IMG/VR virus record: IMGVR_UViG_3300005555_000002
Span: 1-42,635 of that record
Direction: 5' to 3' (one strand)
Length of the DNA stretch: 42,635 nt
From: a virus
The notes below the pieces were generated by a model. The model did no database searches. It was not told the origin of the DNA and was given only the letters and a program-made list of their open reading frames with translations. Position numbers and translations under genes: made by a program. This document shows, piece after piece, positions 6,991-40,095 of the stretch (its first letter is position 1; the number at the start of each line of letters is the position of its first letter).

Positions 6991-6996
6991 TCTAGC

Positions 6997-22076: not shown

Positions 22077-22282
22077 CTGCCCCTCCACTTCGTGGGCCCC
22101 TGAGGCCTCCAGGTCGTTCCGCACTCGACGTGAACATGCTCCCTGGTATGTGCGTCATGCCCATGCTCGATGGTGCACGGGCAACCCCTCACGAGTTCGT
22201 CGCCTCGCGGGTACTTGACGCACCCGCGGTAGTGGATCCTGATGTTGTCACATTGACCAATGGCAGCGTTTGTGTTCCTCAC
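22073..22282 (-). CDS. Small Cys/His-rich protein, possible zinc binder
   Basis: A 69-residue protein joined at its start to the polymerase gene and at its end to the helix-turn-helix gene by four-base GTGA overlaps, which is good evidence that it is translated. Four cysteines (C11, C21, C34 and C36) and clustered histidines (IEHGHDAHTREHVHVEC) suggest a metal-binding knuckle. I recognise no family. Confidence 0.5.
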   Translation of the reverse strand: MRNTNAAIGQCDNIRIHYRGCVKYPRGDELVRGCPCTIEHGHDAHTREHVHVECGTTWRPQGPTKWRGR

Positions 22283-25543: not shown

Positions 25544-25821
25544 TTGGTCCTTCTCAGTTCCTCAGCGGTCACCATCTCGGCAGTGCGAGCGTACCCGGCG
25601 ATGTCCACGAGGTTGTCCCGCCCGGGCCTGTTCATCTCCCTGGACAGTTTCACCGCGACCATCATCAGCGCGACGGTGCGGGGAGGAATATCAGCGACAC
25701 CCAGCATGGCACCCCAGATACGCCCCGTCCGGGAGAAGTCATCGATCGGGTGACCGTAGGCGTCCTGCCTGGGCCCGTCTACCAGGCGGTTCGCCTCCTC
25801 GAGGATCGTCTCACTGAACAC
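25540..25821 (-). CDS. DUF6378-like protein (MazG-like helical)
   Basis: A 93-residue all-helical protein with the pattern RQDAYGHPIDDFSRTGRIW, VALMMVAVKLSREMNRPGRD and DNLVDIAGYARTAE. This matches the DUF6378 phage family. Its K-x-x-R-E...D-N-x-x-D-x-A-G-Y core recalls all-alpha nucleotide pyrophosphohydrolases, so a nucleotide-handling role is possible. The GTG at 25821 has GAGG six bases upstream; a TTG at 25833 is an alternative. It overlaps queC and dpdA, placing it inside the modification operon. Confidence 0.65.
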   Translation of the reverse strand: MFSETILEEANRLVDGPRQDAYGHPIDDFSRTGRIWGAMLGVADIPPRTVALMMVAVKLSREMNRPGRDNLVDIAGYARTAEMVTAEELRRTK

Positions 25822-26566
25822 CGCTTGCCTCAAGGAACTCAGTGGTCAGGTTGGCGTACTCGGTCGGGTCAGCGCGTCCGGTGATCAGCGCGGCATCGAT
25901 CAGCGCCTCACGACGCTCGGTGCACGTCCCGCACGTCCCGCAGTGCACGTCGCCTCCCTTGTAGCATGACCACGTGTCCTCGATCGGCACGGACAGGCGC
26001 TGGGCCTTGACCGCGATGTCCGACTTGGTGCTCATCAAGTACGGTGTCGCGATCCTCGGCGTCTTGGTCGTCTCGTCCCACCTGTTGCCCGAAGTGAGTG
26101 CTGCAGCAAGCGCAGCGACGAACTCGGGACGGCAGTCGGGATAGATCGCGTGATCACCCGCATGGGCAGCGAACGCGACGACCTCGGCGCCTTCTGCGAC
26201 TGCGACACCGTAGGCGATCGACAGCATGATGGCATTCCGGTTCGGGACGACCGTCACCTTCATGCTCTCGTCTGCGTAGTGCCCGTCAGGTACTGGCGTG
26301 TTACTGGTCAGTGACGACGGACCCAGGATCGCGGCGAGTGGTTCGATACTAGCGCTCAGGCCCGCCTGGGTGCCGAGGAGGACGATGCTGTGCCTCGCAC
26401 CTGCGCGATGGGCCAACAACGCTGCTGACTCGAGTTCCTTCCTGTGCCGCTGCCCGTAGTCGAAGGACAGGGCGTGGATGAGGTACCCGAGGTCGGCGTA
26501 GTCGTACAGGAGCGTAGACGAGTCAAGGCCTCCACTGAGGAGGACGACGGCGTGCTTGAGTTCCAT
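25811..26566 (-). CDS. queC: 7-cyano-7-deazaguanine (preQ0) synthase QueC
   Basis: A 251-residue enzyme that converts 7-carboxy-7-deazaguanine to preQ0 with ATP and ammonia. AVVLLSGGLDSSTLLY is the PP-loop ATP motif at the N-terminus. VVPNRNAIMLSIAYGVA and HAGDHAIYPDCRPEF are family blocks. The C-terminal zinc site is complete (SCYKGGDVHCGTCGTC, four Cys). Length fits standalone QueC and there is no fused amidotransferase (Gat) domain, so archaeosine-type products are not indicated. The ATG at 26566 has GGGAGA upstream; the open frame extends further without support. Confidence 0.93.
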   Translation of the reverse strand: MELKHAVVLLSGGLDSSTLLYDYADLGYLIHALSFDYGQRHRKELESAALLAHRAGARHSIVLLGTQAGLSASIEPLAAILGPSSLTSNTPVPDGHYADESMKVTVVPNRNAIMLSIAYGVAVAEGAEVVAFAAHAGDHAIYPDCRPEFVAALAAALTSGNRWDETTKTPRIATPYLMSTKSDIAVKAQRLSVPIEDTWSCYKGGDVHCGTCGTCTERREALIDAALITGRADPTEYANLTTEFLEASGVQ

Positions 26567-26619
26567 GTTGATCGGGTCTCCCTTCTGGTAGTAGTCGCTG
26601 CGCTCAATGCGTCGAGGCA

Positions 26620-26757
26620 CTACTTCTTCTCGTTGGCGTACAGCGCCGCTACCTGTGCCTGTGCCTTCTCCTGGGTCGGGTGGGTGCCCATGACTTGCCC
26701 AGTCGTCGCCTTGACGACAACGAACTTGGGACCCCTCTTCATCACCTTGTACGGCAT
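26620..26757 (-). CDS. Small basic protein of 45 residues inside the que operon
   Basis: The sequence starts MPYKVMKRGPKFVVVKATTG, then HPTQEKAQAQVAALYANEKK. It looks like a two-strand hairpin followed by a helix, a pattern I have seen in short phage and environmental proteins with a conserved H-x-T-x-x-K-A-x-x-Q-x-x-A-L-Y ending. GGGAGG lies in the end of folE, eight bases before the ATG. Function unknown. Confidence 0.65.
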   Translation of the reverse strand: MPYKVMKRGPKFVVVKATTGQVMGTHPTQEKAQAQVAALYANEKK

Positions 26758-26760
26758 GAT

Positions 26761-27393
26761 CTACCTCCCGATCAGTCGTAGGAACTCGTCCTTGGTGGAC
26801 GCGTCCTGTTCGAATACGCCAGTCACCATCGAGGTGACCATCGTGCTCGAGGGTTTCTTGGTCCCGCGCATCGTCATGCACAGGTGCTCTGCCTCGATCA
26901 CGACCATGACCCCTTTGGGTTGCAACCCCTCCTGGATCACGTCAGCGATCTCCTTGGTCATGCGCTCCTGGATCTGCAGGCGGGCAGCGACCGCGTCCAC
27001 GATCCTCGCGAACTTCGACAGGCCCAGGACGCGCCCGTCCGGCAGGTACCCGATGTGGACCATGCCTTTGAATGGGAGCATGTGGTGTTCGCACAGCGAG
27101 TAGAACGGGATGTCCTTGACCGCGACTACCTGCTCGTATCCGTCGTTGGCGAACGTCTTGACGATCGCCCGGACATCGACGCGGTAGCCTGAGAGCAGTT
27201 CGTTGACGTACATCCGAGCGACGCGTCCAGGTGTCTCCTTGATCCCAGGTCGATCCACGTCTTCACCTGCTGCCGTGAGGATCCTGAGCACCGCGTCCTC
27301 GATGTCCAGCAGGTTGTCCACTGGATCCGCCTTGACCCGTCGCGCCAGGTTGTCCACGTCCTCGTCTGTCCACATCGGCACCATGTCGGTCAT
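26761..27393 (-). CDS. folE: GTP cyclohydrolase I FolE
   Basis: A 210-residue enzyme making dihydroneopterin triphosphate from GTP, the first step to preQ0. The zinc ligands are present in PFYSLCEHHMLPFKG and EHLCMTMRG (Cys, His, Cys). GIKETPGRVARMY and LGLSKFARIVDAVAARLQIQ are family signatures. The ATG at 27393 overlaps the queE stop by ATGA. Length and motifs are those of normal bacterial FolE, so it should supply the pathway independently of the host. Confidence 0.95.
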   Translation of the reverse strand: MTDMVPMWTDEDVDNLARRVKADPVDNLLDIEDAVLRILTAAGEDVDRPGIKETPGRVARMYVNELLSGYRVDVRAIVKTFANDGYEQVVAVKDIPFYSLCEHHMLPFKGMVHIGYLPDGRVLGLSKFARIVDAVAARLQIQERMTKEIADVIQEGLQPKGVMVVIEAEHLCMTMRGTKKPSSTMVTSMVTGVFEQDASTKDEFLRLIGR

Positions 27394-28109
27394 CAGTGTC
27401 CTCGCTCGTGTCCCCACGCCAGTGCGTGGACCTGTGGCAGGATGCGTGCCTCTGCGAGCGTGGGTTCTGCCTGGGCCCACGTGATCACGTCGAGGTAGCG
27501 GTCAAGGATGTCCTGGACGGTATCCACGCGTCCTCCCGCGTACGTCCCGTCTAGGCCGCCCATGAGGGTCACGACTGACAGGAAGAACGGGTGCCCAGGG
27601 AACAACCCAGGAAGGTCGGCCGCCCACTGTACGTCCTTCTGATCGCGGCACGGGACCTTGATCGCGACGGGTGCCCGCGTCTTGCTCAGGAACTCGGTGA
27701 GGTCGGTGATCGATGGGACCATGCCGGACGATGGCGGTTTGGGCGACACGACGACCTGGTCAACCCGGTTGATCCACTCCTTCCACTTGCTGCCTTGCGT
27801 CTCGACGCTGACGCGGTAGCCCGAGATGTGCAGCATGTCAACGAGTGCGCCTAGGTTGAACAGGAGCGGGTTGCCACCTGACAGGATGACGACAGGGGCC
27901 CAAGGTAGTTGGGTGAGGTTGGCAACGATCTCTGCCTCGTTCAAGCGGTGGGCGCTGCGCACCTCCTCGGGCAGGACGGCGTGTGACGAGTCACACCAGG
28001 CACAGGCGTAGTCACATCCGCCGAAGCGGACGAACAGGCACTGAGTGCCGACCTCAGGCCCCTCGCCTTGGATCGTGGGCCCGAAGATCTCAACGACCGG
28101 GAACGTCAT
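27393..28109 (-). CDS. queE: 7-carboxy-7-deazaguanine synthase QueE (radical SAM)
   Basis: A 238-residue radical SAM enzyme that contracts carboxytetrahydropterin to 7-carboxy-7-deazaguanine. IFGPTIQGEGPEVGTQCLFVR is the typical start (interrupted here for length), GGCDYACAWCDSSHA holds the CX3CX2C cluster motif, and VVILSGGNPLLF is the GGxP-type SAM-binding strand with N replacing the more common E. VVSPKPPSSGM binds substrate. ATGA overlaps on both sides couple it to queD and folE. Confidence 0.93.
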   Translation of the reverse strand: MTFPVVEIFGPTIQGEGPEVGTQCLFVRFGGCDYACAWCDSSHAVLPEEVRSAHRLNEAEIVANLTQLPWAPVVILSGGNPLLFNLGALVDMLHISGYRVSVETQGSKWKEWINRVDQVVVSPKPPSSGMVPSITDLTEFLSKTRAPVAIKVPCRDQKDVQWAADLPGLFPGHPFFLSVVTLMGGLDGTYAGGRVDTVQDILDRYLDVITWAQAEPTLAEARILPQVHALAWGHERGH

Positions 28110-28471
28110 GACTCCTCCTGGTCGTACTGGACCGAGTTGCCCTTCCCCTCGTGGACGATCACGATGAGGTGGTGCATGTGCCACCCCGCCCTGATCTCAT
28201 CGAACAACCACCGGGCGATGTTCTCAGCAGATGGTGCGAACGAGAACAGGGCATTGAGACCGCGATCACCTCCTGAGTGGTCGAGACGGCGGATGATCGA
28301 CTTGACCGCGCCGAAGTCAGGCCCCCACCCGTAGTCATCGAGATCCGTTTCTGTGTACTTCCAGGTTGCCTCGATGCGCCAGGAGTGCCCGTGCATGTTG
28401 TGGCACTTGTGCAGTGGAGGCCCGTTGCTGTGGGCCGCTTCGACTGTCTCCTCGACGTGTGCAGTGAACAT
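28106..28471 (-). CDS. queD: 6-carboxytetrahydropterin synthase QueD
   Basis: A 121-residue member of the pyruvoyltetrahydropterin synthase family. Zinc ligands are His in VEAAHSN and the two His of MHGHSW; the catalytic Cys is in HKCHNMHGH (C-x3-H-x-H). LDHSGGDRGLNAL gives the Asp-His pair, and IVHEGKGN the terminal Glu. All key residues are present. It would turn dihydroneopterin triphosphate into carboxytetrahydropterin. It starts three bases after the queF stop. Confidence 0.92.
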   Translation of the reverse strand: MFTAHVEETVEAAHSNGPPLHKCHNMHGHSWRIEATWKYTETDLDDYGWGPDFGAVKSIIRRLDHSGGDRGLNALFSFAPSAENIARWLFDEIRAGWHMHHLIVIVHEGKGNSVQYDQEES

Positions 28472-28474
28472 CAG

Positions 28475-28924
28475 TCAGTGCCCCAGGTAGTAGTTGCGGG
28501 GTGGGATGCCAAGGAGGATGTCGCCCCTACCGTCGCCCCTCATGGCGACCGCGACGATCGAAACGCCGCCGCGGGCCTTCTGCGTCACGTCAACGCGGAC
28601 CCACATGGGCTTGACTTCCTCCATGATCTTCTTGGCGATCTCGTCGGCGAGTGACTCCACGAACGCCGCGGTGTCTCGGAGTGACGTGAGGTACATCTTC
28701 CAGGACTTCGACTCGATGCAGAGGTCCCGAGGAGCATAGGTCACGTCGATGACTTCGAAGTCGGGCTGTCCGGTGATCGGGCACATTGAGGTGACCTCGT
28801 CGGACGTCATCCGGACAATGTCGACCGCCGGTGCCGGGAAGGTATCGAGGCCTCCGAACACCTGTTCCTTGGTCCCGAGGTAGGCGGGTTGAGCACCCTG
28901 GAACGGGTCGATTCTCAAGTGCAT
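28475..28924 (-). CDS. queF: NADPH-dependent preQ0 reductase QueF
   Basis: A 149-residue single-module QueF, predicted to reduce preQ0 to preQ1. SMCPITGQPDFE holds the catalytic Cys and, seven residues on, the Asp. ESKSWKMYL is the NADPH-binding motif that separates QueF from the amidinotransferase-like QueF-L. The catalytic Glu is kept in AAFVES, but the His usually before it (F-H-E) is Val. AAGGAG ends only one base before the ATG at 28924, so the in-frame TTG at 28918, seven bases away, may be the real start; a longer frame from 28954 would bury the ribosome site. It is first in the que-dpdA-polA operon. Confidence 0.88.
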   Translation of the reverse strand: MHLRIDPFQGAQPAYLGTKEQVFGGLDTFPAPAVDIVRMTSDEVTSMCPITGQPDFEVIDVTYAPRDLCIESKSWKMYLTSLRDTAAFVESLADEIAKKIMEEVKPMWVRVDVTQKARGGVSIVAVAMRGDGRGDILLGIPPRNYYLGH

Positions 28925-28956
28925 ACTCCTTCTGTGAGGTGGGTCTGTGATCAACC

Positions 28957-29070
28957 GTCAGAATCGCGCACAAGGCGCTACAACCGGTCGTGTAGCGGTG
29001 ACGTTCTCGTGACTGGGTGATTAGGCAACTTTCTGCTTCAACCGGGCTTAGCGTCAGTTTCGATCACCAG
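28957..29070 (-). repeat. Intergenic element copy B, upstream of queF
   Basis: On the minus strand: block 1 CGCTAAGCCCGGTTG (29053-29039), central block AAAGTTGCCTAATCA (29032-29018) and block 3 GGTTGTAGCGCCTTGTGCGC (about 28985-28966). CGCTACA/TGTAGCG inside block 3 forms a 7-bp stem with an 8-base loop. It lies about 30 bp upstream of the queF ribosome site and downstream of the DUF669 gene, at the entry to the modification operon. Confidence 0.6.
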
Positions 29071-29086
29071 AATCCGACCAGTTTCG

Positions 29087-29128
29087 GCGGGGCAGATTAT
29101 GCAGGGGGAAGTGCATAATCTGCCCGCC
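29087..29128. terminator. Strong hairpin after the DUF669 gene, no U-tract
   Basis: GGCAGATTATGC (29091-29102) pairs with GCATAATCTGCC (29113-29124), and the outer GGCGG/CGCC extends the stem to about 16 bp with one bulged G. The loop is AGGGGGAAGT. No T-run follows on either strand, so this could be a factor-assisted terminator, an RNA processing site or a 3'-end stabiliser separating the early operon from the que operon. Confidence 0.5.
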
Positions 29129-29143: not shown

Positions 29144-29833
29144 TTAGCGGAACGACCGCTTCGCCGGCGCGGCGCGCTTGGTCGTCGTGGGCTTCTTGAC
29201 CCCGGACGTCGTCGGACGGAACGTCTTCGTTGCCGCCGCCTTGACCGGTGTCTTCGTCGCGGCCTTCGGTGCGACCTTCGCCGGCGCTGCCTTCGGTGCG
29301 ACCTTCTTCTTGATGGGAGCGGGTTCTTCCTCTTCTTCTTCGTCTTCCTCTTCTTCCTCGTCTTCTTCCTCGGCCTCCTCGTCTTCCTCTTCCTCTTCCT
29401 CCTCGTCGTCCTCGACCTCACCGCCACCCGGGGGGTTGGCGAACTCGGTGTGGACGACCCGGTTGACTTCCTTCTTGTTGTAGATCTCGTTCTCGATCGT
29501 CAGGATGACGCCCTCGCCGTTGAGGTCGGGCTCAAGGAGGAGGTTCGACTCCTCATCGATGTCGAGATCGTACTCGTCGTCATCGAACCCGGCGGCCTTG
29601 AAGAAGTCGCGCATCCGGAACAGCGCCTTGGGCGACCACGACAGGACCTCCCAGACCTTGCGTCCCAGGTACTCGGATTCCTCGGTGACCGTGTACTCGA
29701 CGTTGAGGTAGGGCGCCTTGCCCTTCTCCTTCGCCTCGCGGTACTCGATCTTGGTGATCTCAGCGTCATAGACGCCCTCGGGGATCGCTTCGAACTCCTC
29801 GACGTCCCCAAAGTTGACCTTGACTCGTGCCAT
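29144..29833 (-). CDS. DUF669-type ssDNA-binding-like protein, acidic then basic tail
   Basis: A 229-residue protein. Residues 1-135 match DUF669 (ARVKVNFGDVEEFEAIPEG, YLNVEYTVTEESEYLGRKVW, FRMRDFFKAAGFDD), a phage family next to recombination genes and thought to act like single-strand binding proteins. It then has about 40 residues of almost pure Glu/Asp, followed by about 60 residues of Lys/Ala/Pro/Thr repeats like histone H1 tails. The acidic tail may mimic the SSB tip that recruits partners; the basic tail could bind DNA. It lies downstream of the Sak4-like gene. Confidence 0.65.
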   Translation of the reverse strand: MARVKVNFGDVEEFEAIPEGVYDAEITKIEYREAKEKGKAPYLNVEYTVTEESEYLGRKVWEVLSWSPKALFRMRDFFKAAGFDDDEYDLDIDEESNLLLEPDLNGEGVILTIENEIYNKKEVNRVVHTEFANPPGGGEVEDDEEEEEEEDEEAEEEDEEEEEDEEEEEEPAPIKKKVAPKAAPAKVAPKAATKTPVKAAATKTFRPTTSGVKKPTTTKRAAPAKRSFR

Positions 29834-29837
29834 GTGC

Positions 29838-30059
29838 TTACTCCTCGATCGTGAAGATTGCCACCCGCTTCCCGACGACCGTGAGGGCATCGAGCATCGG
29901 GAGGGTGATGGTGATGGTGCCCGATCGTTCGGTGAGCGGTCGGACCTCGTGTGCGCCCATGCTGTCGTCGATGGCTGCCGGGCCTACCTGTCCCACGGCG
30001 CACACGTCACCAATGGTGCCCAATGACTGACCGTTCCTGTCCTGCACTGCCCTCCTCAT
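29838..30059 (-). CDS. Hypothetical 73-residue protein
   Basis: Starts by ATGA overlap with the Sak4-like gene and stops four bases before the DUF669 gene. The sequence is beta-rich, with a C-terminal block GTITITLPMLDALTVVGKRV that looks like two strands. No family recognised. Its place between two recombination genes suggests an accessory part in that module. Confidence 0.5.
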   Translation of the reverse strand: MRRAVQDRNGQSLGTIGDVCAVGQVGPAAIDDSMGAHEVRPLTERSGTITITLPMLDALTVVGKRVAIFTIEE

Positions 30060-30808
30060 GACTTGAACCCCAACACATCGAGCAGGTCGGTGATCGAGGG
30101 GTCTTCGATCTCCGTCGGAATGCGCACACCCCACGGGGTGCGGGCCTTCACTTGGAACTTCGGGTACGAGTGCAGAAGGAGAAGGCGATGCACCGTGTCG
30201 TCGTCCGCGTCCTCGTTCGCGAGGTACGCGACGACATCCACGATGCCTGGCAACTCCTTCTGGAACGCGCCCTGCAGCAACGGGACCTTGATCGTCCCGA
30301 GGCGTGGTACGACCGACTCACCCGCCAGCGCCGTGAAGAACACATGCATCGGCAGGTCCCGGAAGTGACGAACGAGGCGCCGCATCTGGACGAGGATGAC
30401 ACCCCAGTCCTGCTGCGCCATGAGGTCGGGATCAACGCGCTTGGCATCCTTGTCGAGGATGTTCAGCATCCCGAAGATCTGCGTCTCCGAGATCGAGTCG
30501 AGGCCGGTCGACCGGTACTTGCAGTTCGGGTCAGACAGGATCTCGTACGCCTCGTCGTACTCGGCCCACGTGCGCACGTCGAACACATCGACGTCCGAGC
30601 CCGCGAGCGTGTGGGTCCCGCCTTCGAAGTTGAGGACCAGGATGGGCGATGTCCGCTCGTCTTCGTTCGCCGTCGCGAGGAGGTGCGTCTTGCCGTGCCC
30701 GTGCGGTGCGAAGATCAGCGCATTGCAGTACGTTGACTCCTCCGCCTTGTGGATCTTTGCCAGGCCCGAGGGGACGTGCGCCTTCCTGACTGGACGTTTG
30801 AGTGCCAT
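30056..30808 (-). CDS. Sak4-like RecA-fold ATPase (AAA_24)
   Basis: A 250-residue RecA-fold ATPase. Walker A is IFAPHGHGKTHLL near residue 35 and Walker B is STGLDSISETQ near residue 105. LPMHVFFTALAGES resembles the sensor strand. This is the layout of phage Sak4/AAA_24 proteins, which anneal single strands and work with an SSB-like partner, here the nearby DUF669 protein. The ATG at 30808 has GGTGGAGG upstream. It overlaps the 73-residue gene by four bases. Confidence 0.75.
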   Translation of the reverse strand: MALKRPVRKAHVPSGLAKIHKAEESTYCNALIFAPHGHGKTHLLATANEDERTSPILVLNFEGGTHTLAGSDVDVFDVRTWAEYDEAYEILSDPNCKYRSTGLDSISETQIFGMLNILDKDAKRVDPDLMAQQDWGVILVQMRRLVRHFRDLPMHVFFTALAGESVVPRLGTIKVPLLQGAFQKELPGIVDVVAYLANEDADDDTVHRLLLLHSYPKFQVKARTPWGVRIPTEIEDPSITDLLDVLGFKS

Positions 30809-30809
30809 G

Positions 30810-31361
30810 CTACCTCCACCTCTGCCCAATCCACTGGGCGACCCTGATCCGGGCATCATTGTCTAGCGAGTTGAACAGGTTGACGACTACCTGCATAACG
30901 CCCAGTTCATCGTCTACTCTAGGCAACCTCTCGCGCGTTGTTTCTGCTGCCTTGCGGCGTTGACGTTTGATCGCTGGTCGACTCCCCTTCTCCGTTGGGT
31001 ACTCGACCTGCAACCTGGTCACTGTGCGAGTGCCAGAAGCATCCCGCCCGTCCCTGATCGCTCGGTATTGAACCCAGTGGATGAGCGAGTTCCGTATCGT
31101 AGATTCTGCTCCGCCTGTTGCCTTCGCCCAGCCTTCGATGTCCCGTGGGACCTCCTCATTCAGAGGTAGCAGATCCCACAACTTGCGCCTGGGGATAGCG
31201 GTAGGACCATGAGGCAGACCTTGCACGTCAACCCAAAGTGCCTTCTGATCACCGTCTACCGGTAGCAGTGCCTGATCCTGATCCATTGGTGTTATGCCTC
31301 CTTGCCATGGTGGGATCCTGTGAAGGTAGTCCCATGTTCTCTCAACCTGTCCTTTTGGCAC
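30810..31361 (-). CDS. Putative winged-helix DNA-binding protein
   Basis: A 183-residue protein if started at GTG 31361, which has GGAGG six bases upstream inside the preceding gene; ATG at 31286 (158 residues), also with GGAGG, is the alternative. EEVPRDIEGWAKATGGAEST followed by IRNSLIHWVQYRAIRDGRD resembles a winged helix, and the next strands (TVTRLQVEYP) and basic stretch IKRQRRKAAETTRER support DNA binding. Its codons are noticeably richer in A/T-ending triplets than those of neighbours, a sign of possible recent acquisition. Function is not known. Confidence 0.55.
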   Translation of the reverse strand: MPKGQVERTWDYLHRIPPWQGGITPMDQDQALLPVDGDQKALWVDVQGLPHGPTAIPRRKLWDLLPLNEEVPRDIEGWAKATGGAESTIRNSLIHWVQYRAIRDGRDASGTRTVTRLQVEYPTEKGSRPAIKRQRRKAAETTRERLPRVDDELGVMQVVVNLFNSLDNDARIRVAQWIGQRWR

Positions 31362-31364
31362 GGT

Positions 31365-32429
31365 TTACCTCCGTGGTGGTGCGATGCTGTACTGCTGTTC
31401 GATGATCGCCTCAACGTCACCCCCATCCTGCATCGTTGCACACAGCATCTTGACTGGGCATCCTGGGCAGTTGATCGAGGACGGTGACGGGTACGCGCGT
31501 TCGGGATGCGCTGCCACGTCGCGCATATCCCGCCACTCCTCGGCAAGGTTCAACTCGAACTGCTCGAGTTGCGCCATGTTCCTGAACACCCCCTCCTGGA
31601 TGTAGAAGTCCGTCCACCCGCGATCCTTCAACCAGTCGAGGTGCTCCTGGTACTCGCGACGATCAAGGCCCAGGCGCTTGATCGCCTTGAGGTACAGCGA
31701 GTAGGTCGTCGGTTCATCCCGCGCCCTCGACAACTTGCCTGACTTGAGTAGCGTGGGTTCGCGCGGCGCCTTCTTGAGGAGAACGTTGTAGACCTGACCA
31801 CGCGGGAGGACGCCCGTTGCACGCCAGTACACGTAGGCGTATCCCGTGAGTTGGTCATCGAGGTCGAGGTACGCGCTGCTGTGCTTCTGACCTGCCGTCT
31901 TGTGGTCGACCACCCAGATGGTCCCGTCAGGTCGTTCCACCACGAGATCGAAGCGCCCGGTGAGTTCGGGTGACCCAGGGAACGCGCGTCCTGCCCGCGT
32001 CCTGATCGTCACGCGGTAGCGTTCCTCGACGGCGATCGGATCACCCATGCCTCCCGTCTCGCGCTCCATCTGGAAGTACCCGGTCAGCATCGCGCGTCCC
32101 ATCGCGATCATGTCGGCGTACTCGTCCTCCGCTGACTCCCACAGGAACCCGAGGTCCTCGCGGATGCCTGGGAGCGACTCCTCGAGGAAGTGGTCGTAGG
32201 CCTCACGGGCCCACGTCTCACGCTCCTGCAGTGACATACCATCGCGCTGACCCACGTAGTAGTGTTCCAGGGCGTAGTGCAGCAGGTTGCCGAACCAGAA
32301 GTAGGGCGCACCACCGTGAGGTTGCAGGCGCTTGACGACGACCAGGAACCACTTCCGCCGACACTGCCGGAAGTCAGCGCGTTCCGTGACCGACGTCTCA
32401 TGCAGGTCGACCGGGCCCAGGTCAAACAT
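31365..32429 (-). CDS. RecB/Cas4-like PD-(D/E)XK nuclease with Fe-S cysteines
   Basis: A 354-residue nuclease. The core is ELTGRFDLVVE with a catalytic Asp, then WVVDHKTAG with the D-x-K pair. RADFRQCRRKWFL near residue 20 gives the first Cys, and the C-terminal NCPGCPVKMLC gives three more, the 1+3 arrangement of an iron-sulphur cluster that staples the fold in AddB/Cas4 nucleases. It would act in replication or recombination, resecting or processing ends. The start overlaps the RuvC-like gene by eight bases. Confidence 0.8.
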   Translation of the reverse strand: MFDLGPVDLHETSVTERADFRQCRRKWFLVVVKRLQPHGGAPYFWFGNLLHYALEHYYVGQRDGMSLQERETWAREAYDHFLEESLPGIREDLGFLWESAEDEYADMIAMGRAMLTGYFQMERETGGMGDPIAVEERYRVTIRTRAGRAFPGSPELTGRFDLVVERPDGTIWVVDHKTAGQKHSSAYLDLDDQLTGYAYVYWRATGVLPRGQVYNVLLKKAPREPTLLKSGKLSRARDEPTTYSLYLKAIKRLGLDRREYQEHLDWLKDRGWTDFYIQEGVFRNMAQLEQFELNLAEEWRDMRDVAAHPERAYPSPSSINCPGCPVKMLCATMQDGGDVEAIIEQQYSIAPPRR

Positions 32430-32811
32430 GCCTGCTGCCCAACCAGTACCTGCCCATCCTGATCGCGTCCCGCTCGTGGGGCGTCAACTTCACTCCATAG
32501 CGTGTCTTGGGTGACTCGGGTGCCGATGACGTCTTCCACACGCCAGGTGTTACTGGGTGCCACAGGCGGGCGTAGTCAGTGAGGACCAGGTTGATCGTCG
32601 CGACGACTTCACGCAGTTGGGTTGCCAAGGCGCCCGATGGTGCGAGCGGGAACACCTCGACCACTGCCTCCTGAGGAGCCCAGTGTTCCATGACGTAGAT
32701 GAGGCCTTCCCGCAGGTCCTCGGCAAGGAAGTTGCCGGTGTCATAGACGCCCGACTCACCGAGCACCGCCCAACCCGTCGTGACTCCCGGATCGAGTGCA
32801 AGTAGGATCAC
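32422..32811 (-). CDS. RuvC-like Holliday junction resolvase
   Basis: A 129-residue RNase H-fold nuclease. The GTG start overlaps the helicase stop by GTGA. LLALDPGVTTGWAVL is the first strand with the catalytic Asp, AVVEVFPL the Glu, and PHERDAIRMGRYW the C-terminal His/Asp pair. The motif set is complete, although the protein is shorter than cellular RuvC. It probably resolves branched intermediates before packaging. Confidence 0.8.
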   Translation of the reverse strand: MILLALDPGVTTGWAVLGESGVYDTGNFLAEDLREGLIYVMEHWAPQEAVVEVFPLAPSGALATQLREVVATINLVLTDYARLWHPVTPGVWKTSSAPESPKTRYGVKLTPHERDAIRMGRYWLGSRHV

Positions 32812-34409
32812 AGGCCCAGTCCTTTCAGCAGTTCCTTCAACTGCGCGTTGCTGATCTTGGCGAGCGATGGCATCTTGCCAGACAGGTTGTCCTCGAGGAG
32901 GTCGTCCACGGTGCCTGGTGCGCGTAGTGTGAGGAGGAGCGGGCGCCAAGTCAACCCGATCCTTCGCACACGTCGCAGAGATTGGATGTAGTCGTCTGCT
33001 GCCCACGTCTTGTCCAGGTAGACGACCGTGCGGGTGTTCGTCAGCGTGTGCCCGAACTTGCCCACACCGAGTGACAGGACGAGGACGTCCGTAGCACCGC
33101 TCCTGTAGGCCTCAAACTGTCGATCCCGGGTACGTGTCAGGGACGACCCAGAAACCCAGTCAGCGTTGATCTGACGCGCTCTCAGACGGTGTGTGAGGTC
33201 CTCAGCGCCCCCGCGCCAATGTGTCCACACGATCGCCGGGAACTTGAACGCCTGTGACTCGATCAACTCGATGAGTGCATCCGCCTTCGCCGAGTCAGTC
33301 AGCAGGCCTGAGAAGTTTGCCAGGCCCGACGTGATCTGCTGCAGGCGGATGAGTTGTGCCAACTTGTTGTCGGCGGTCACCTCCTTCCCACCTAGTTCGG
33401 TGAGGAAGTCCTTGAGCATCTCGCGGTACGCCTGCTTCTGTCGCGGCGTGAGTTCGACATCGACCGTCTGGTACAGGTACTCGGGCAGGTCAGGCAGGAC
33501 GTCCGGGTCCTCCTGGTTGACCGTCAGCATGACGTCCCCGAGTTCCCAGGTCAGGTCGCGTGACTCGCGGGTGCCGACGATCTCCTTCCCCGTCTTCGAC
33601 CAGATGTTCGCTTCGAACACGCAGAAGCGCTCGGCGAACCGCCAGTAGGAACTGAACGCGACGGGCCAGGCGAGGTGCATCTGGGTCCACAGGTCGTCCG
33701 CGTAGCGTGTGGTCGGTGATCCCGACAGCATCCACACCTTCGGCACCTTCTGCCGCAACGCGTCGAGCGCCTTGTACCGCTTGGTCGTCCGGTTCTTGAT
33801 TAGGACCGACTCATCGATCACGAGGAGGCGCCACTTGACCACGTCGAACCAGTCAGGGTGCCTGACCACCGTGTCGTAGGAGGTGATCGTGAACCCGCCA
33901 CCGATCTGGGGGTTCGTGCCGTGCGCGATCAGCGCATCCTCGCCCGACCACGCCTTGATCTCACGCTGCCAGGTGTAGAGGAGTGAGGCAGGCGCGACGA
34001 TCAGGCATGGGAACAGCAAGGAGGCCTGGGCGGCGACGATCGATACCGCCGTCTTGCCCAGGCCCGGGGACATGTTCAGCAGCGTGCCATGTGGGTTGCC
34101 GACAAGGTACTCGGCGGCCCGCTGCTGGTACGGGTACAGGTCGGTGAAACGGCGATGGGCGACGCTTGCGGGTTTGAACCCGTAGCCATCGCCCATCTCC
34201 TTGACCTGTTCGCTGAGATCCAGATCGTCGCCGAAGGCCTCGATGGCCTGGACGACGTTCGATCGCAGCGCCGGGAACTTCCAGGCGTCTGCCTGGTCGT
34301 CCCACGATGCCCCGATCTGTTGCTTGACCTCCCGGTACGTGTGGCCAAGCGGCGGCGCGAGTCGTAGCGCGCCGTCGTTGCCCACGTACAGGAGTGCCCG
34401 GTCGATCAT
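32808..34409 (-). CDS. SWI2/SNF2-family DNA helicase
   Basis: A 533-residue superfamily 2 helicase. Motif I is NMSPGLGKTAVS, motif II is LLVIDESVLIKN (DESV for DEAH), motif III LSGSPTTR, motif V region LSLGVGKFGHTLT, and motif VI QSLRRVRRIG. An N-terminal region of about 100 residues (LAPPLGHTYREVKQQIGASW) is like the HARP-type start seen in SMARCAL1-type annealing helicases and phage relatives. A role in replication fork remodelling is inferred. The ATG at 34409 overlaps the previous gene by ATGA. Confidence 0.85.
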   Translation of the reverse strand: MIDRALLYVGNDGALRLAPPLGHTYREVKQQIGASWDDQADAWKFPALRSNVVQAIEAFGDDLDLSEQVKEMGDGYGFKPASVAHRRFTDLYPYQQRAAEYLVGNPHGTLLNMSPGLGKTAVSIVAAQASLLFPCLIVAPASLLYTWQREIKAWSGEDALIAHGTNPQIGGGFTITSYDTVVRHPDWFDVVKWRLLVIDESVLIKNRTTKRYKALDALRQKVPKVWMLSGSPTTRYADDLWTQMHLAWPVAFSSYWRFAERFCVFEANIWSKTGKEIVGTRESRDLTWELGDVMLTVNQEDPDVLPDLPEYLYQTVDVELTPRQKQAYREMLKDFLTELGGKEVTADNKLAQLIRLQQITSGLANFSGLLTDSAKADALIELIESQAFKFPAIVWTHWRGGAEDLTHRLRARQINADWVSGSSLTRTRDRQFEAYRSGATDVLVLSLGVGKFGHTLTNTRTVVYLDKTWAADDYIQSLRRVRRIGLTWRPLLLTLRAPGTVDDLLEDNLSGKMPSLAKISNAQLKELLKGLGL

Positions 34410-34612
34410 GCGAAGTGCAAGACCGAGGTGTCGCGGTATGGGCACAGTTCACACCACCGCCCCGCCCAGGCGTCAGGACGCCCGTCCGGGTACAGTGCGA
34501 CGAACCGCAACCGATGCTGCCCAGTTCGGCACGGGACCTTGGGATCCTTCGGGATGACCTTGACCGGTTTGGGGGTGGGCGCGATGCCCAGGCTCGGGTT
34601 TCTGCCCATCAT
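34406..34612 (-). CDS. Small zinc-ribbon-like protein
   Basis: A 68-residue protein. VPCRTGQHRLRF and GRWCELCPYRD give a Cys, a His and a C-x2-C pair, suggesting one zinc site. It starts by ATGA overlap with the membrane-protein gene upstream and ends by ATGA overlap with the helicase gene. The upstream sequence has GGACAGGA, the ribosome-site cassette shared by many leftward genes. Confidence 0.6.
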   Translation of the reverse strand: MMGRNPSLGIAPTPKPVKVIPKDPKVPCRTGQHRLRFVALYPDGRPDAWAGRWCELCPYRDTSVLHFA

Positions 34613-34737
34613 ATCCTGTCCTTCTTGTTGTCCTCGAGGTCGGGGTCGGGTCCCAGGATGATCCCGAGGACTGCTGTCCCGATCGAGAGGATGGCGAGGA
34701 ATACAGCGACGATCACGATGAGATCGCCTGTAGTCAT
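34609..34737 (-). CDS. Single-span membrane peptide, 42 residues
   Basis: Sequence begins MTTGDLIVIVAVFLAILSIG and continues as one hydrophobic segment to residue 29, then a charged tail PDPDLEDNKKDRI. GACAGGAG lies nine bases before the ATG. It is the first gene after an internal promoter and a 5' hairpin. The function is unknown; small early membrane proteins often modify the host envelope or exclude other phages. Confidence 0.65.
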   Translation of the reverse strand: MTTGDLIVIVAVFLAILSIGTAVLGIILGPDPDLEDNKKDRI

Positions 34738-34756
34738 GGGTGGGTGCTCCTGTCCT

Positions 34757-34794
34757 GTCGCACCCGCGAACCGGGGGAGGAACGCGGGTGCGAC
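34757..34794 (-). other. Perfect 12-bp hairpin at the predicted 5' end of an mRNA
   Basis: GTCGCACCCGCG (34757-34768) and CGCGGGTGCGAC (34783-34794) are perfect complements with a 14-base loop. The predicted transcription start of the promoter at 34800-34829 is about 34793, so the stem would be the first thing in the transcript, an arrangement known to protect RNA from 5'-end attack. Confidence 0.55.
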
Positions 34795-34799
34795 CTATG

Positions 34800-34829
34800 A
34801 CGATAGTGACGGCGTGCGTAGGTTGTCAA
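34800..34829 (-). promoter_or_regulatory. Internal leftward sigma70-like promoter
   Basis: On the minus strand TTGACA (34829-34824) and TATCGT (34805-34800) are 18 bp apart. It lies between element copy C and the membrane-peptide gene, so it could drive the replication and recombination genes separately from the upstream early genes. Confidence 0.55.
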
Positions 34830-34840
34830 CGGCGCAACGC

Positions 34841-34960
34841 CTACACGATCGCGTACAAGGTGGCTACAACGGTCGCTAAGGCCCGGTCACCCAGGTCGCC
34901 CTGTGATTGGGCAACTTTGAGCAGCAACCGGGCTTAGCGACCGTTTGAGAAGGGGTTCTG
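34841..34960 (-). repeat. Intergenic element copy C, with long inverted repeat
   Basis: On the minus strand: block 1 CGCTAAGCCCGGTTG (34939-34925), central block AAAGTTGCCCAATCA (34918-34904) and block 3 AGCGACCGTTGTAGCC then CTTGTACGCGATCGTG (about 34878-34844). The ends form a nearly perfect 19-20 bp inverted repeat (34868-34887 and 34927-34946, one inserted base). It is directly upstream of the internal promoter and 2 bp from the stop of the next upstream gene. This copy shows the symmetry most clearly. Confidence 0.65.
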
Positions 34961-34961
34961 C

Positions 34962-35132
34962 TCAGGACTCGTACGTCCTGCACGCGCACCCGGGAACGTG
35001 ACAAGCGGACGTTGTCCACTTGACCCGGGCGTACTTCGGGTCTTCCAGGATCGCGGGATCCACGCGTCCCGTGTGCGATGCCTTGAGGTGGGTGCACCAC
35101 AAGCAGTGCCCGTCACCACGCTTCCTTGCCAT
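34962..35132 (-). CDS. Small four-or-more-cysteine protein, 56 residues
   Basis: Starts MARKRGDGHCLWCTHLKASH and ends SACHVPGCACRTYES. Two Cys-x2-Cys-like groups (HCLWC, CHVPGCAC) flank a central acidic and basic region, a pattern of small zinc-binding phage proteins. Its start shares a base with the upstream stop (TGATG). It ends just before element copy C. Too short to appear in default gene calls but the coupling and pattern support it. Confidence 0.7.
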   Translation of the reverse strand: MARKRGDGHCLWCTHLKASHTGRVDPAILEDPKYARVKWTTSACHVPGCACRTYES

Positions 35133-35851
35133 CAGAATATCAACGCTTCCTGCAGGTTCGATGCCTGCTCGTCGCGCCAGTTGGTCATGGCCTCGTCCAC
35201 GATCGTGTCGCAGTCGTCACACCCCTCGGTGTTCGTCTCGTGCTCCTCGTTGTCGCAGGCGTCGAGTTCGTCCCGCTCGGGAGGATCATCGAAGGACACC
35301 GACTCGACCTCGTCCTTCTGGGACTCGAGTTCCTCGGCGCGCTGCCCCGCCTCGGATGACCCCTGCCCGCCGAAGTTCTCGTCTGCCTCCTGGTACTGCT
35401 CGATGACCTCGTCCAAGGCATCGACCATCTCCTGCTGCAGGTCTTCGAAGAACGACGTCTCGTCCACGTCTGACAGGTCAGCGAGCGAGTCCTCGACTGA
35501 CTCCTGGGCAGCGAGGACGCCTTGCATCAGCGACGACTCGCGCTCACTCGGGCGAGGGAAGCACGTCGCCTTCATGCACCGGACGACCGTGGTGCTCGAT
35601 CGGAAGTACGGTTCCCAGTACAGGTACGGGTCACCGACCCCGATCGTGTCGCCGCACTTGCTGCACTTCTTGAGGGGCAACGGTGTGCCCTTGTCCTTCG
35701 CGATCACGCGACGGGTCATCGGGCGTCCGCCGCGTCCCATCTTCGGCGTGCCGTCCTTCTTCTTGACTTCGATGATCGTGGGCGTTGCTGACGCGTCACG
35801 GGCGTACGTCTGCCGTGCGTGCTTGACGTAGTAGATCCTCTTGACCGACAT
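35132..35851 (-). CDS. Hypothetical protein with zinc knuckle and acidic C-terminus
   Basis: A 239-residue protein. The first 105 residues are basic and contain KKCSKCGDTIGVGDPYLYWE with CMKATCF, a probable zinc-binding fold reminiscent of MYM/HNH-like knuckles. Residues 105-239 are strongly acidic and helical (SLADLSDVDETSFFEDLQQE and onward), and a second Cys pair lies at EGCDDCD. GGACAGGAG lies before the ATG. A DNA-mimic or transcription-related role is possible but speculative. Confidence 0.6.
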   Translation of the reverse strand: MSVKRIYYVKHARQTYARDASATPTIIEVKKKDGTPKMGRGGRPMTRRVIAKDKGTPLPLKKCSKCGDTIGVGDPYLYWEPYFRSSTTVVRCMKATCFPRPSERESSLMQGVLAAQESVEDSLADLSDVDETSFFEDLQQEMVDALDEVIEQYQEADENFGGQGSSEAGQRAEELESQKDEVESVSFDDPPERDELDACDNEEHETNTEGCDDCDTIVDEAMTNWRDEQASNLQEALIF

Positions 35852-35882
35852 CGGTGAACTCCTGTCCGTTGAACATGGTGAT

Positions 35883-35910
35883 GGGTGCCGGGTGGTCTAA
35901 CCCGGCACCC
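35883..35910. terminator. Perfect 10-bp intergenic hairpin, no U-tract
   Basis: GGGTGCCGGG (35883-35892) pairs with CCCGGCACCC (35901-35910) around an 8-base loop. It lies in the 73-bp gap between two leftward genes. No T-run follows, so it may be an attenuator, processing site or RNA stabiliser rather than a standard terminator. Confidence 0.45.
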
Positions 35911-35924
35911 AATGATCGTCCCGA

Positions 35925-36338
35925 CTACTTGCTCGCGATCGCCTGCTCCTTCGCTGCGCGGCGCTGGACGGCGGCGCGGATATCCCAGACGTACGCCGGG
36001 TTGACTCCCGTCGCCTTCGCGATGTCCGCGGGCCGCGCGTCCGGGTGGGACTCGAGTGCGCGCCGGACGTAGTCGGCCTGCGTCTCGCCCTTGCGCGGCG
36101 GGACCTTGAACGCGATGGGCTCGGGCTTCGGCGCGGTCGCCTTCGCGGGGGCCTTCGTCGTCGCCTTCGCTGCCGGCGCCTTCGTGGCACCGTTCGTGCG
36201 ACCGCTGGTCGCCTGCTCCTTCGCCGTCATCGGGCGGGTGGTGCCCGTCGCGACGCTGACCTTCCGGGTCGAGCGCGCTGCCGCCTGACCCTTCTGCGCT
36301 GTGGCGATCTTCGCGTTCGTTGCCTTGATAGTGGCCAT
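35925..36338 (-). CDS. Histone H1-like tail plus helix-turn-helix protein
   Basis: A 137-residue protein. Residues 1-75 are Ala/Thr/Lys/Pro-rich like bacterial H1-type tails (ATIKATNAKIATAQKG, KAPAAKATTKAPAKATAPK). The rest has a helix-turn-helix-like region: RKGETQADYVRRALESHP, then ADIAKATGVNPAYVWDIRAA. A nucleoid-type DNA-binding role is likely. GACAGGAG is before the ATG. It shares its tail type with the DUF669 protein. Confidence 0.65.
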   Translation of the reverse strand: MATIKATNAKIATAQKGQAAARSTRKVSVATGTTRPMTAKEQATSGRTNGATKAPAAKATTKAPAKATAPKPEPIAFKVPPRKGETQADYVRRALESHPDARPADIAKATGVNPAYVWDIRAAVQRRAAKEQAIASK

Positions 36339-36386
36339 GACTGTTCTCCTGTCGCTACTTCGGTGTGACAAGTGCCACACTCGCCG

Positions 36387-36413
36387 TCGGGCGGGAACGA
36401 TGCTCCTGCCCGA
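36387..36413. other. Short intergenic hairpin
   Basis: TCGGGC (36387-36392) pairs with GCCCGA (36408-36413) across a 15-base loop in the 86-bp gap upstream of the histone-like gene and downstream of the zinc-ribbon gene. No U-tract follows. One of several stems at gene boundaries in this operon. Confidence 0.3.
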
Positions 36414-36424
36414 TCGTGGGGGTG

Positions 36425-36685
36425 TTACCTGCTGTCGGCGTATGAGATCCCATGATCGACTGCCTGGTCCTCGCAGGCCTGGCAGTGTGGGAACTTGGGA
36501 TCCTTGTCGCTGCCGCACTGGGGGCAGATCGTGTCGGGATCGACTCCCTGCTGGATCGCTGCCTGGCGGTTGAGGTCGTGCATGTACGCGCGGAACGCGT
36601 CCTGCTGTGCTGGCGTCAACGGCACCCGTTTGAACGCTGCCTGATCCGCCGACTCGCGGAGGTGGTCGTACTCGTCGTGTGCCAT
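36425..36685 (-). CDS. Zinc-ribbon protein, 86 residues
   Basis: The C-terminal half has ICPQCGSDKDPKFPHCQACE, two Cys-x2-Cys pairs that form a classic zinc ribbon. The N-terminal half is helical and charged (MAHDEYDHLRESADQAAFKR). The start is preceded by GGACAGGAC. No specific family recognised. It is part of the early leftward gene set. Confidence 0.7.
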   Translation of the reverse strand: MAHDEYDHLRESADQAAFKRVPLTPAQQDAFRAYMHDLNRQAAIQQGVDPDTICPQCGSDKDPKFPHCQACEDQAVDHGISYADSR

Positions 36686-36703
36686 GTCCTGTCCTTTCGC
36701 TGC

Positions 36704-36823
36704 CTAAGGCAGCAGATTGCGGAAGTGCATCGCGTACGGGATGACCGCTGACGCGACGACGACGACGAACACCAGCAGTGCAATGAACACCACGAGCGTC
36801 GCCAATGTTCCCCCGTTCACCAT
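36704..36823 (-). CDS. Single-span membrane peptide, 39 residues
   Basis: MVNGGTLATLVVFIALLVFV starts a hydrophobic segment reaching residue 30, with a short HFRNLLP tail. AGGAGGACAGG ends directly at the ATG, giving a strong ribosome site. Early operon membrane peptide of unknown role. Confidence 0.65.
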   Translation of the reverse strand: MVNGGTLATLVVFIALLVFVVVVASAVIPYAMHFRNLLP

Positions 36824-36881
36824 CCTGTCCTCCTTGCTGGGCTGCGATCCTACGCGCAGCACCGGGCTGCTGTTCAACCCC

Positions 36882-37628
36882 CTAATCGCCGAACGCTCGC
36901 CCGGCGCAGATGGGTCCGATCCCGTCCGCGATCGAACGCTCGTCCGTGAGCGTCCGTCCGCAGATGCCACACACGCCGTACAGGCGACCGAACTCGACTG
37001 CCTGTTCGCGCGTGAGGCGCTCGTCTTCCGTCAACTTGGTGACCAGGCCCGGCATGTATTCCCACGATGCCGAACCGTGCTCCTGGACGACCAGGCGCTT
37101 GGCGTACAGGTTGCCTGACCCGTGCACTGCAACCTGGACCTTCACGATGTTGCCATCGTGCTTGTAGAACCCATCCTGGGTGATCGTCGTGACCCCGCCT
37201 GTGCCCCCAGACAACGGTCGCTGAGCGGCCTTCGCTGCCTGTTCCGCACGTTCACGGGCCCAACCTTCTTCGCGGGCCTTGCTGGCGAGGACAACCTCGA
37301 CCTGCCTGGGCGACAGCGTGAAGTGTTCACCACCCCACCTGGCACCGTTGACTGTGCGAGGCGTCATCCGTGCGCTAAGGTCCAGGATGAACTCCCACGT
37401 CCCCCGGTAGTCACGGATGTAGGCGACTGCCTCGTCGCGCTGCTTCTTCGCTTCCGGGTTGATCGTCTGCGCGACGTGTCGGGCGGCGTCCACTACCGCC
37501 TCGACTGTCGTCCGCTGCTGACCCATGTGGTCAGCCCAGGCGTCCTCCCACGCCTGCATCTCCCGCGTGTCCTTGACGTTGTAGAAGGTCCCGTCCGGAC
37601 CTGGGTACATCTTCGCCTGCTGCGTCAT
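36882..37628 (-). CDS. DUF6011-like zinc protein
   Basis: A 248-residue protein. The C-terminus VCGICGRTLTDERSIADGIG followed by PICAGR matches the DUF6011 zinc motif (C-x2-C, then G-I-G-P-x-C). The middle has a beta-rich region around DGFYKHDGNIVKVQVAVHGS that could be a small binding domain, and TLSPRQVEVVLASKA is helical. It begins seven bases after the DUF2786 gene stop, with GGACAGG at the start. Function unknown. Confidence 0.7.
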   Translation of the reverse strand: MTQQAKMYPGPDGTFYNVKDTREMQAWEDAWADHMGQQRTTVEAVVDAARHVAQTINPEAKKQRDEAVAYIRDYRGTWEFILDLSARMTPRTVNGARWGGEHFTLSPRQVEVVLASKAREEGWARERAEQAAKAAQRPLSGGTGGVTTITQDGFYKHDGNIVKVQVAVHGSGNLYAKRLVVQEHGSASWEYMPGLVTKLTEDERLTREQAVEFGRLYGVCGICGRTLTDERSIADGIGPICAGRAFGD

Positions 37629-38592: not shown

Positions 38593-38883
38593 CTACTCGT
38601 TGCCGAACTGTGTGGGCGATGTCGGGACCTGCATCTCAACGATGCCCCAACCTGCATCGTTGAGGTCGTCCCAATCGTTTGACCGTGCGCCCTTGCCTGC
38701 GTCGGCGCGATCCCATTCGCCTGTCGCGTACATCACTTCGACCGCCCAGGCGACTGCCTGGTCCCGCGTCTCGAACGGGCCGAACACCTGCTGGTTGTTG
38801 TCATCGATCGCGACCCAGGTGCTGTGCCCCGCGACCAGCGCGTCCGCATACCGGACGACTTCCGTGATCTCCTGTCCGTTCAT
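38593..38883 (-). CDS. Hypothetical protein, 96 residues
   Basis: Alpha/beta protein with HSTWVAIDDNNQQVFGPFET and RDQAVAWAVEVMY, a pattern of two strands and a helix like small phage accessory domains. The start overlaps the preceding gene by ATGA. Inside its first codons sits GGACAGGAG, the operon ribosome-site cassette, but no start codon follows at good spacing. Confidence 0.6.
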   Translation of the reverse strand: MNGQEITEVVRYADALVAGHSTWVAIDDNNQQVFGPFETRDQAVAWAVEVMYATGEWDRADAGKGARSNDWDDLNDAGWGIVEMQVPTSPTQFGNE

Positions 38884-39170
38884 TCCCAATCCGCCTTCTC
38901 GCTGTCGTCCGCGTTCTGGACGTCTTCGAACTGCCGCGATGCTGAGTCGAACCAGGCGTCCGGCGCATTGCCCATGCCCTGATCGCGCACGAACGGCTGG
39001 TAGGCGCCTGCCTGCAGTTCGATGTGCAGGCCCAGGCGCGCCGCCTCGTGCATCGCGTTCTGCCAATGCTCCAGGAACTCGGCGTACAACTCGCGCGCCT
39101 GCTCCAACTCGTTCAGGCCTTCGCCTGCTGCTGCCTTCGCCTCGTCCAGGTTCTCGATCTGTCGCGCCAT
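38880..39170 (-). CDS. Hypothetical helical protein, 96 residues
   Basis: A mainly helical acidic protein (NLDEAKAAAGEGLNELEQAR, ELYAEFLEHWQNAMHEAARL) with a short aromatic loop (AGAYQPFVRD). It may be a coiled-coil dimer. GGACAGGAG precedes the ATG. ATGA overlap with the next gene. No family recognised. Confidence 0.6.
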   Translation of the reverse strand: MARQIENLDEAKAAAGEGLNELEQARELYAEFLEHWQNAMHEAARLGLHIELQAGAYQPFVRDQGMGNAPDAWFDSASRQFEDVQNADDSEKADWE

Positions 39171-39198
39171 GATGTTGTTCTCCTGTCCGTGTGTCGTG

Positions 39199-39528: not shown

Positions 39529-39922
39529 TGTGTGTCTCCTTCAGGTGCCGGTCACTAACCCGGTCACGACGCTGCCTGATTGTGTCGCAGCAGCGTTTCG
39601 ACTTGTTCCGATCAGACGCCTCGTTTCTCGGTCCGCGGTTGTCTGCCCCACCGATCGTCCTTGCCAGGTCGTCATGCCTGGTAGGCGTTATCGCGACGGG
39701 CGACCCATCTCGTTAGGAGCGGGCGATTGCCTGATCGTGTGTAGAAGATCGTTCCTGATCATCCTTCCCGGGTTCCCGCACTCTGGCCCATCTTGCGATG
39801 TTCGGGCGTTCCACCTCTTGCGAGGTGAGGTACCTGGTGCCGTTAGGTCATCGGGGGTGTTGATCGAGGTTCGATATTCGGGATGTAAAGGTGCGTGAGA
39901 TCGGCAGGAGCGGATCTCGTTG
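39529..39922 (-). ncRNA. Long structured 5' leader of the leftward early operon
   Basis: About 390 bases between the predicted start site and the first gene hold no convincing coding frame on the minus strand. Hairpins seen: GAGATC/GATCTC at 39918-39897 at the 5' end; CACCTC-GCAA-GAGGTG at 39827-39812, a 6-bp stem with a GNRA tetraloop; and CCAGG/CCTGG near 39681-39664. A leader RNA involved in antitermination or translation control is inferred; plus-strand open frames here look like chance. Confidence 0.4.
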
Positions 39923-39927
39923 TGTCA

Positions 39928-39957
39928 ACACTAATGGCGTACGCTCAAACCTGTCAA
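39928..39957 (-). promoter_or_regulatory. Leftward early promoter with two TTGACA boxes
   Basis: TTGACA at 39957-39952 is followed after 17-18 bp by TTAGTG/TAGTGT. A second TTGACA starts at 39928, inside or just past the -10, as part of GTGTTGACAC. GTATTCTGAG (39960-39969) lies just upstream. The -10 is imperfect, but position at the head of the operon and the 5' hairpin fit. Confidence 0.5.
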
Positions 39958-40064
39958 GCGTATTCTGAGAGAACTAGTTCGGCAGTTTTGTGCCACATGA
40001 CGTACACGTATGCGGCATTGTCGGGCAAACCCCGTTCGGTCCGCACGTTCAGGTGTGCGGCGAC

Positions 40065-40095
40065 TTGACACCGCCGTGTGTTCTTCGCCTACGAT
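40065..40095 (+). promoter_or_regulatory. Rightward promoter before primase-helicase
   Basis: TTGACA at 40065-40070 and TACGAT at 40090-40095, spacing 19 bp. It diverges from the leftward promoter, so 39928-40095 is the early control region. If used, transcription begins near 40102, which excludes the GTG at 40078 as the start of the primase gene. CCGCAC/GTGCGG (about 40040-40060) forms a small stem just upstream. Confidence 0.5.

Follow-up and report, generated by a model that had tools for sequence, protein, structure and literature searches.

Genome and gene map

The window analysed here spans an entire IMG/VR virus record (42,635 bp) and belongs to a tailed phage whose structural genes (terminase, portal, scaffold, capsid and tail) lie on the + strand and whose - strand, from 21.8 to about 39.5 kb, carries replication genes together with queuosine-type genes (QueC, QueE, QueD-like and FolE-like). 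Open reading frames were the basis of manual gene calling. Among the gene products are a Sak4-like annealing protein and an exonuclease; no integrase was recognised in PHROGs and Pfam scans of the main ORFs, and the named-phage collection contained neither a near DNA relative nor a significant match. The queuosine/deazaguanine set at 25811-28954, comprising QueC, QueE, QueD-like and two GTP cyclohydrolase-like genes, suggests that the phage DNA may be 7-deazaguanine-modified. IMG/VR contains very few relatives of the helicase (gene at 32808-34445), so the replication module comes from a group of phages that has been sparsely sampled. Positions 29,912-37,049 are duplicated in a near-identical fragment, L012.

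Five related intergenic elements of about 115 bp each, here called c1 to c5, are dispersed over this genome. The first copy, c1 (3967-4084, + strand), lies between the portal gene, which ends at 3880, and the scaffold gene, which starts at 4160. The degenerate copy c2 (6885-6993, - strand) sits between the genes at 6565-6900 and 6997-7545, opposite to their transcription and overlapping a gene over its final 13-16 bases. The third, c3 (21697-21796, + strand), occupies the convergent junction of the late (+) and replication (-) genes and adjoins a gene for an XRE-type helix-turn-helix protein of 108 aa (21798-22124, - strand; PF01381, 23.5 bits against a cut-off of 23). The fourth, c4 (28957-29076, - strand), is placed between an SSB-like gene (29144-29890) and a FolE-like gene (28475-28954), where it heads the QueE/QueC group; a separate hairpin, GGGCAGATTATGCA..TGCATAATCTGCCC, is found at 29090-29125 between the end of the SSB-like gene and c4. 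The most symmetrical copy, c5 (34840-34962, - strand), begins where a 56-aa ORF (34962-35132) stops and ends ahead of the helicase gene and a 42-aa ORF (34609-34737); because L012 covers it, an independent contig supports this copy.

Reality of the repeat family

All five copies had been listed in a first-pass annotation made from the sequence alone, and our analysis confirmed that they form a real repeat family, with two copies on the + strand (c1, c3) and three on the - strand (c2, c4, c5), counts that are too small for statistics on orientation. In self-BLAST, c1 matched c4 at E=5e-7 and c4 matched c5 at E=6e-6; the weak pairs, taken alone, reached 0.036 (c3-c5) and 1.5 (c2-c5). A profile built from c1, c4 and c5 alone recovered both c2 (26.5 bits, E=1e-7) and c3 (14.4 bits, E=8e-4), whereas none of 40 dinucleotide-shuffled genomes scored above 8.6 bits. 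Although intergenic sequence makes up 8.1% of the genome, 5/5 copies fall there, and long gaps without an element occur at 6294-6564, 22125-22278, 29891-30055, 36519-36881, 38658-39198 and 39529-40077. The copies are only about 70% alike, and no recent near-identical copies are present.

Anatomy of the elements

The conserved core consists of two inverted half-sites, the left reading (AAC)NGNCGCTAAGSCCGG and the right CTTAGCGACCGTT; in the orientation of the first-pass annotation, the left half-site opens with ..AACNG(N)CGCTAAGSCCGGTTG and the right is CTTAGCGACCGTT(GTAG). Left and right half-sites, 13-20 bp long in all copies, mirror each other as inverted repeats, most cleanly in c5, and the left is better conserved than the right, which is poor in c1. 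Left half-sites lie at 3983-4003 (c1), 6977-6957 (c2), 21700-21720 (c3), 29059-29039 (c4) and 34945-34925 (c5), and right half-sites, in the same order, at 4048-4063, 6913-6898, 21764-21779, 28995-28980 and 34880-34865. Beyond these come CTTGTGCGCGAT in c1 (4069-4080) and c4 (28974-28963), CTTGTGCGGGAC in c3 (21785-21796) and CTTGTACGCGAT in c5 (34859-34848). Spacing, which was absent from the earlier annotation, is constant: the half-sites start 58-59 bp apart in 5/5 copies, with about 45-50 bp between the halves and a centre-to-centre distance of about 64 bp, or close to six helical turns, and a third block, CTTGTRCGCGAT, follows 79-80 bp from the left half-site in all five (CGCTAAG to CTTGTRCG, 80, 80, 79, 79 and 80 bp from c1 to c5).

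The interior is variable. A middle block, AAAGTTGCCYAATCA, is common to c2 (6950-6936), c4 (29032-29018) and c5 (34918-34904); it is inverted in c1 and placed 10 bp further in (4020-4034), and c3 has in its place a near-perfect, terminator-like hairpin, GAAACCCCC..GGGGGTTTC (21719-21758), with half-sites and spacing kept. The description of three blocks shared by all copies in the same order accordingly stands for the family as such and needs amending in detail, in that c3 retains only CGCTAAG of the first block and lacks the second, the second is not the same in every copy, and the third is degenerate in c2. The 19-20 bp inverted repeat that had been reported for c5 is real, with 13 perfect base pairs (34868-34880/34933-34945) plus a CCGG/CCGG stretch, but it is equally strong only in c5 and c3. 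Conserved right-hand sequence reaches about 20 bp past the inverted repeat. That the spacing stays constant while the interior changes is the single most telling clue, and it suggests that two contact points, rather than the shape of a transcript, would be under selection.

Inverted repeats of constant size at dispersed intergenic sites, which differ from phage to phage, could also be the decayed remains of a MITE-like element that a host transposase mobilised in trans, and a short direct repeat, GATTCTG, on both sides of c4 would agree with such an origin. We nevertheless regard a mobile element as unlikely, because the conserved right-hand block lies outside the inverted repeats, because interiors of equal length are unrelated (in c3, and between this phage and its relative G018, described below), and because neither a transposase nor a consistent target-site duplication (judged by eye) was seen. 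The absence of recent near-identical copies argues in the same direction, as does a search for the inverted-repeat pattern in 84,980 genomes, which returned three unrelated bacteria, a chance level.

Folding, transcription signals and database scans

When RNA folding was compared with shuffled sequences, only c3 (z -6.0) and c5 (z -5.65) of the five copies folded above chance, and c1, c2 and c4 (z 0.17, 0.31 and 0.67) did no better than their shuffles; the family therefore shares DNA sequence, not RNA shape. The folding of c3, c5 and both copies in a second relative, G009 (z -4.2 and -3.0), together with the position of most copies just 3' of a gene, would fit long operon-end hairpins acting as transcription terminators or as RNase III substrates, a reading that we consider about as unlikely as the mobile element, given the three copies that fold no better than shuffles, the lack of a T run, the placement of c2 antisense to its own flanking genes, and the imperfect pairing of the inverted repeats in registers that shift between copies. 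A scan for intrinsic terminators (a GC-rich hairpin followed by a T run) passed no element; c3 has the hairpin only, and was not listed because it lacks the T run.

Promoter scans gave results at or below chance and no consistent promoter. Between 21.0 and 36.5 kb, one sigma-70-like site was found against 2.2 expected by chance, namely TTGACA-18-TATCGT (34800-34829, - strand), just downstream of c5, with its first hexamer starting at 34829, 11 bp below the element. A tRNA check, and an Rfam search of the whole 42,635-nt sequence that gave no match at gathering score, bear out the earlier statements that the elements are neither tRNAs nor a known RNA; at c5, Rfam returned sub-threshold microRNA noise only.

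Searches of Rfam, named phages and plasmids returned no match to the element. A joint-pattern scan of the whole of IMG/VR returned 7 stretches, consisting of the L012 duplicate, two elements of G018 (E1 and E3), a 99.8% identical strain of G018, and three apparently unrelated contigs. Several further candidates were rejected. The 15-base pattern CAACCGGGCTTAGCG gave 14 stretches in IMG/VR, about the chance level, among which L012 is the duplicate and a match examined in detail is an unrelated coding stretch. The pattern TCGCTAAGNSCGG..TTAGCGA had nine other matches, and the two examined represent the same coding stretch in related contigs. A hairpin followed by CTTGTGCGCGATC in G006 is a coincidence (E=2.8), a two-block match at 30708 of G019 is coding, and a 40-bp match to a Streptomyces plasmid lies in long open frames, without the left half-site. 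Integron attC sites were considered for the AAC..GTT ends and rejected by eye, as their box consensus does not fit.

Elements in related phages

Relatives sharing the replication module were gathered by a search with the exonuclease. In G018 (L109), whose replication genes are 27-40% identical to those of this phage and whose structural matches are weak (28-38%), three dispersed copies are present at 36425-36540, 25128-25276 and 2360-2459. Two of them, E1 and E2, were detected by BLAST at E=9e-4, and the third, E3, scored 16.0 bits against a best of 11.4 in 60 shuffles; further BLAST matches at 13356 and 40675 had no profile support and were rejected. The left half-site CGCTAAGGCGGCG occurs in 2/3 of these copies, and the right, (G/C)TTAGCG, follows at 57-58 bp. 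The full profile of five copies found nothing in the relatives, and the link to G018 is visible only to a two-block model: built from this phage's copies only, it ranks E3 and E1 of G018 third and fourth of about 86,000 positions, and 0/600 permuted models placed two elements in the top four, a p-value that rests on three elements in one genome. As two-block scores are low and other positions score equally, the claim for G018 leans on these ranks coinciding with repeats that had been defined independently.

The second relative, G009 (L085), has two copies (2577-2692 and 9729-9844) with the arms AACCGCACTAGAA/TTCTAGTGCGGTTGTA and a spacing of 86 bp in both. Their likeness to the elements of this phage is not above chance, and different half-sites at a different spacing are what would be expected if a binder and its site co-evolve. 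In G010, G016, G017, G019, G022 and G023, which have the replication genes in common with this phage, no such element family was found, and a search for a gene exclusive to the three element-bearing phages found none.

Element positions mostly do not match from phage to phage. The convergent late/replication junction holds both c3 and G018 E2; c4, c5, G018 E1 and both G009 elements each immediately follow one gene and precede the next on the same strand, and a RuvC-like gene is preceded by an element in both G009 (E1) and G018 (E1). The exception in orientation is c2, which faces away from the direction of its flanking genes. We infer from these placements that the common denominator may be the 3' border of a transcription unit. 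On L109, a 23-bp near-perfect hairpin (6267-6364, z -4.2) overlaps the stop codon of the gene that precedes G018 E1.

The nearest structural relative of this phage is G001, with a capsid 72% identical. Its portal-scaffold junction holds no element and has an extra gene instead, and its three dispersed repeats (1088-1213, 4845-4973 and 27799-27927) were rejected as elements, since they resemble HNH endonuclease-type coding sequence. G001 lacks counterparts of two tail-region genes, a glycosyltransferase-like gene (9029-9691, phrog_1721) and the next one (9688-10374). The major tail gene and the one after it (5826-6900) lie directly behind the capsid gene here and beside the tape measure gene in G001, and c2 is at the right border of this moved block.

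Such rearrangements recall the PeSL of T4-type phages, which, in the work of Arbiol 2010 and Comeau 2014 as cited in PMC4503421, combine a promoter and a stem-loop at gene-block borders and are implicated in modular shuffling. The present elements are likewise repeated composite units at gene-block borders, and they could be cassettes of a stem-loop and a control sequence whose repeats let the phage recombinase swap or move gene blocks; the Sak4-like annealing protein and exonuclease, the short hairpins ahead of c4 and G018 E1, and the positions of c2 and of c1, where G001 has its extra gene, are all in keeping with this. Copies only about 70% alike would, however, recombine poorly by homologous exchange, these rearrangements have further borders that carry no element, both structural copies would fall on breakpoints by chance about 1 time in 8 by our estimate, and the early promoter and stem-loop of PeSL as described there are not consistent features here (no consistent promoter, a hairpin only in c3 and c5). 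Boundary cassettes of this kind are in our judgement unlikely.

Paired operator sites as the preferred reading

Our preferred reading, to which we assign a probability of roughly 0.47, is that the elements are paired operator sites at transcription-unit boundaries, bridged by a DNA-binding protein. Among the roles put forward in the first-pass annotation (protein binding, genome organisation or a small mobile element), protein binding is the best supported, because half-sites and spacing are conserved, the interior is free and a distant phage has the same layout. The repeat family, its half-sites, their fixed spacing, the placement of the copies and the matching layout in that phage are observations; protein binding, bridging and a part in transcription are inferred. 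Each element would be a bipartite site with AACNGNCGCTAAG on the left, CTTAGCGACCGTT on the right and CTTGTRCGCGAT as an accessory sequence on one side, and, with centres near six helical turns apart, the half-sites would lie on the same DNA face. A protein encoded by the phage or the host would occupy both, probably bridging them. Bound sites at the 3' ends in question (portal/scaffold, tail gene/next gene, the end of the late operon, SSB/queuosine genes and small gene/helicase) might then define the borders of phage transcription units, whether as a roadblock to elongating polymerase or through control over start-up of the next unit, the latter role making little sense at c3 and G018 E2, which lie at convergent junctions.

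The XRE-type protein encoded beside c3 is a natural candidate binder. It has a homolog beside the polymerase gene of G009 (33%) and in that relative only; as no relative was found in G018, the binder may be another phage or host protein. Several points weigh against paired operators, including the missing G018 relative of the XRE-type protein, the absence of a gene exclusive to the three phages, the two convergent junctions, the orientation of c2, the poor right half-site of c1, the unlike elements of G009 and the rarity of matching positions. A broader proposal, which we hold to be doubtful, is that long-spaced bipartite boundary sites are widespread in phages with this replication module, with a phage protein bridging six or eight helical turns and insulating transcription units, and with half-site and spacing shifting together from one phage lineage to another.

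Relation to known systems and significance

Stoperator-bearing Cluster A phages are temperate, and in the main ORFs of the present phage no integrase was recognised. A stoperator is also a single asymmetric 13-bp site, bound by an immunity repressor, whereas the element is bipartite and about 115 bp long. In Cluster A mycobacteriophages, stoperators are present in multiple copies, oriented along transcription, and are proposed to halt it (PMC3203893, PMC4351075). The ESAS of Cluster K mycobacteriophages have 17-bp halves with a spacer of mostly 4-13 bp and lie above a 13-bp SAS, GGGATAGGAGCCC, at start codons; base-pairing was unsupported and protein binding was proposed (PMC3203893). Like our elements, they are dispersed intergenic imperfect inverted half-sites with a stronger left half and a consensus that differs between related phages (PMC3203893). 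In contrast to ESAS, the half-sites here are spaced by 58-59 bp and no SAS was found in the elements or in the flanks examined, and for these reasons the element is not filed as ESAS, although its working would be most ESAS-like. Cluster O mycobacteriophages carry 34 nearly invariant 7-3-7 palindromes (17-bp dyads), about one third of them inside genes; these too are dispersed, symmetric sites without an assigned function in phages that are not obviously temperate (PMC4351075), but they are compact and nearly invariant, whereas the present elements are long-spaced with a variable interior. On the best reading, the element would resemble ESAS and stoperators in its working and be a member of neither family.

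Several phages rely on dispersed intergenic sites to coordinate the genome as a whole. The element described here has a sharp, testable anatomy, with two half-sites, a fixed phase and a free interior, and it is present in two phages that otherwise have little in common.
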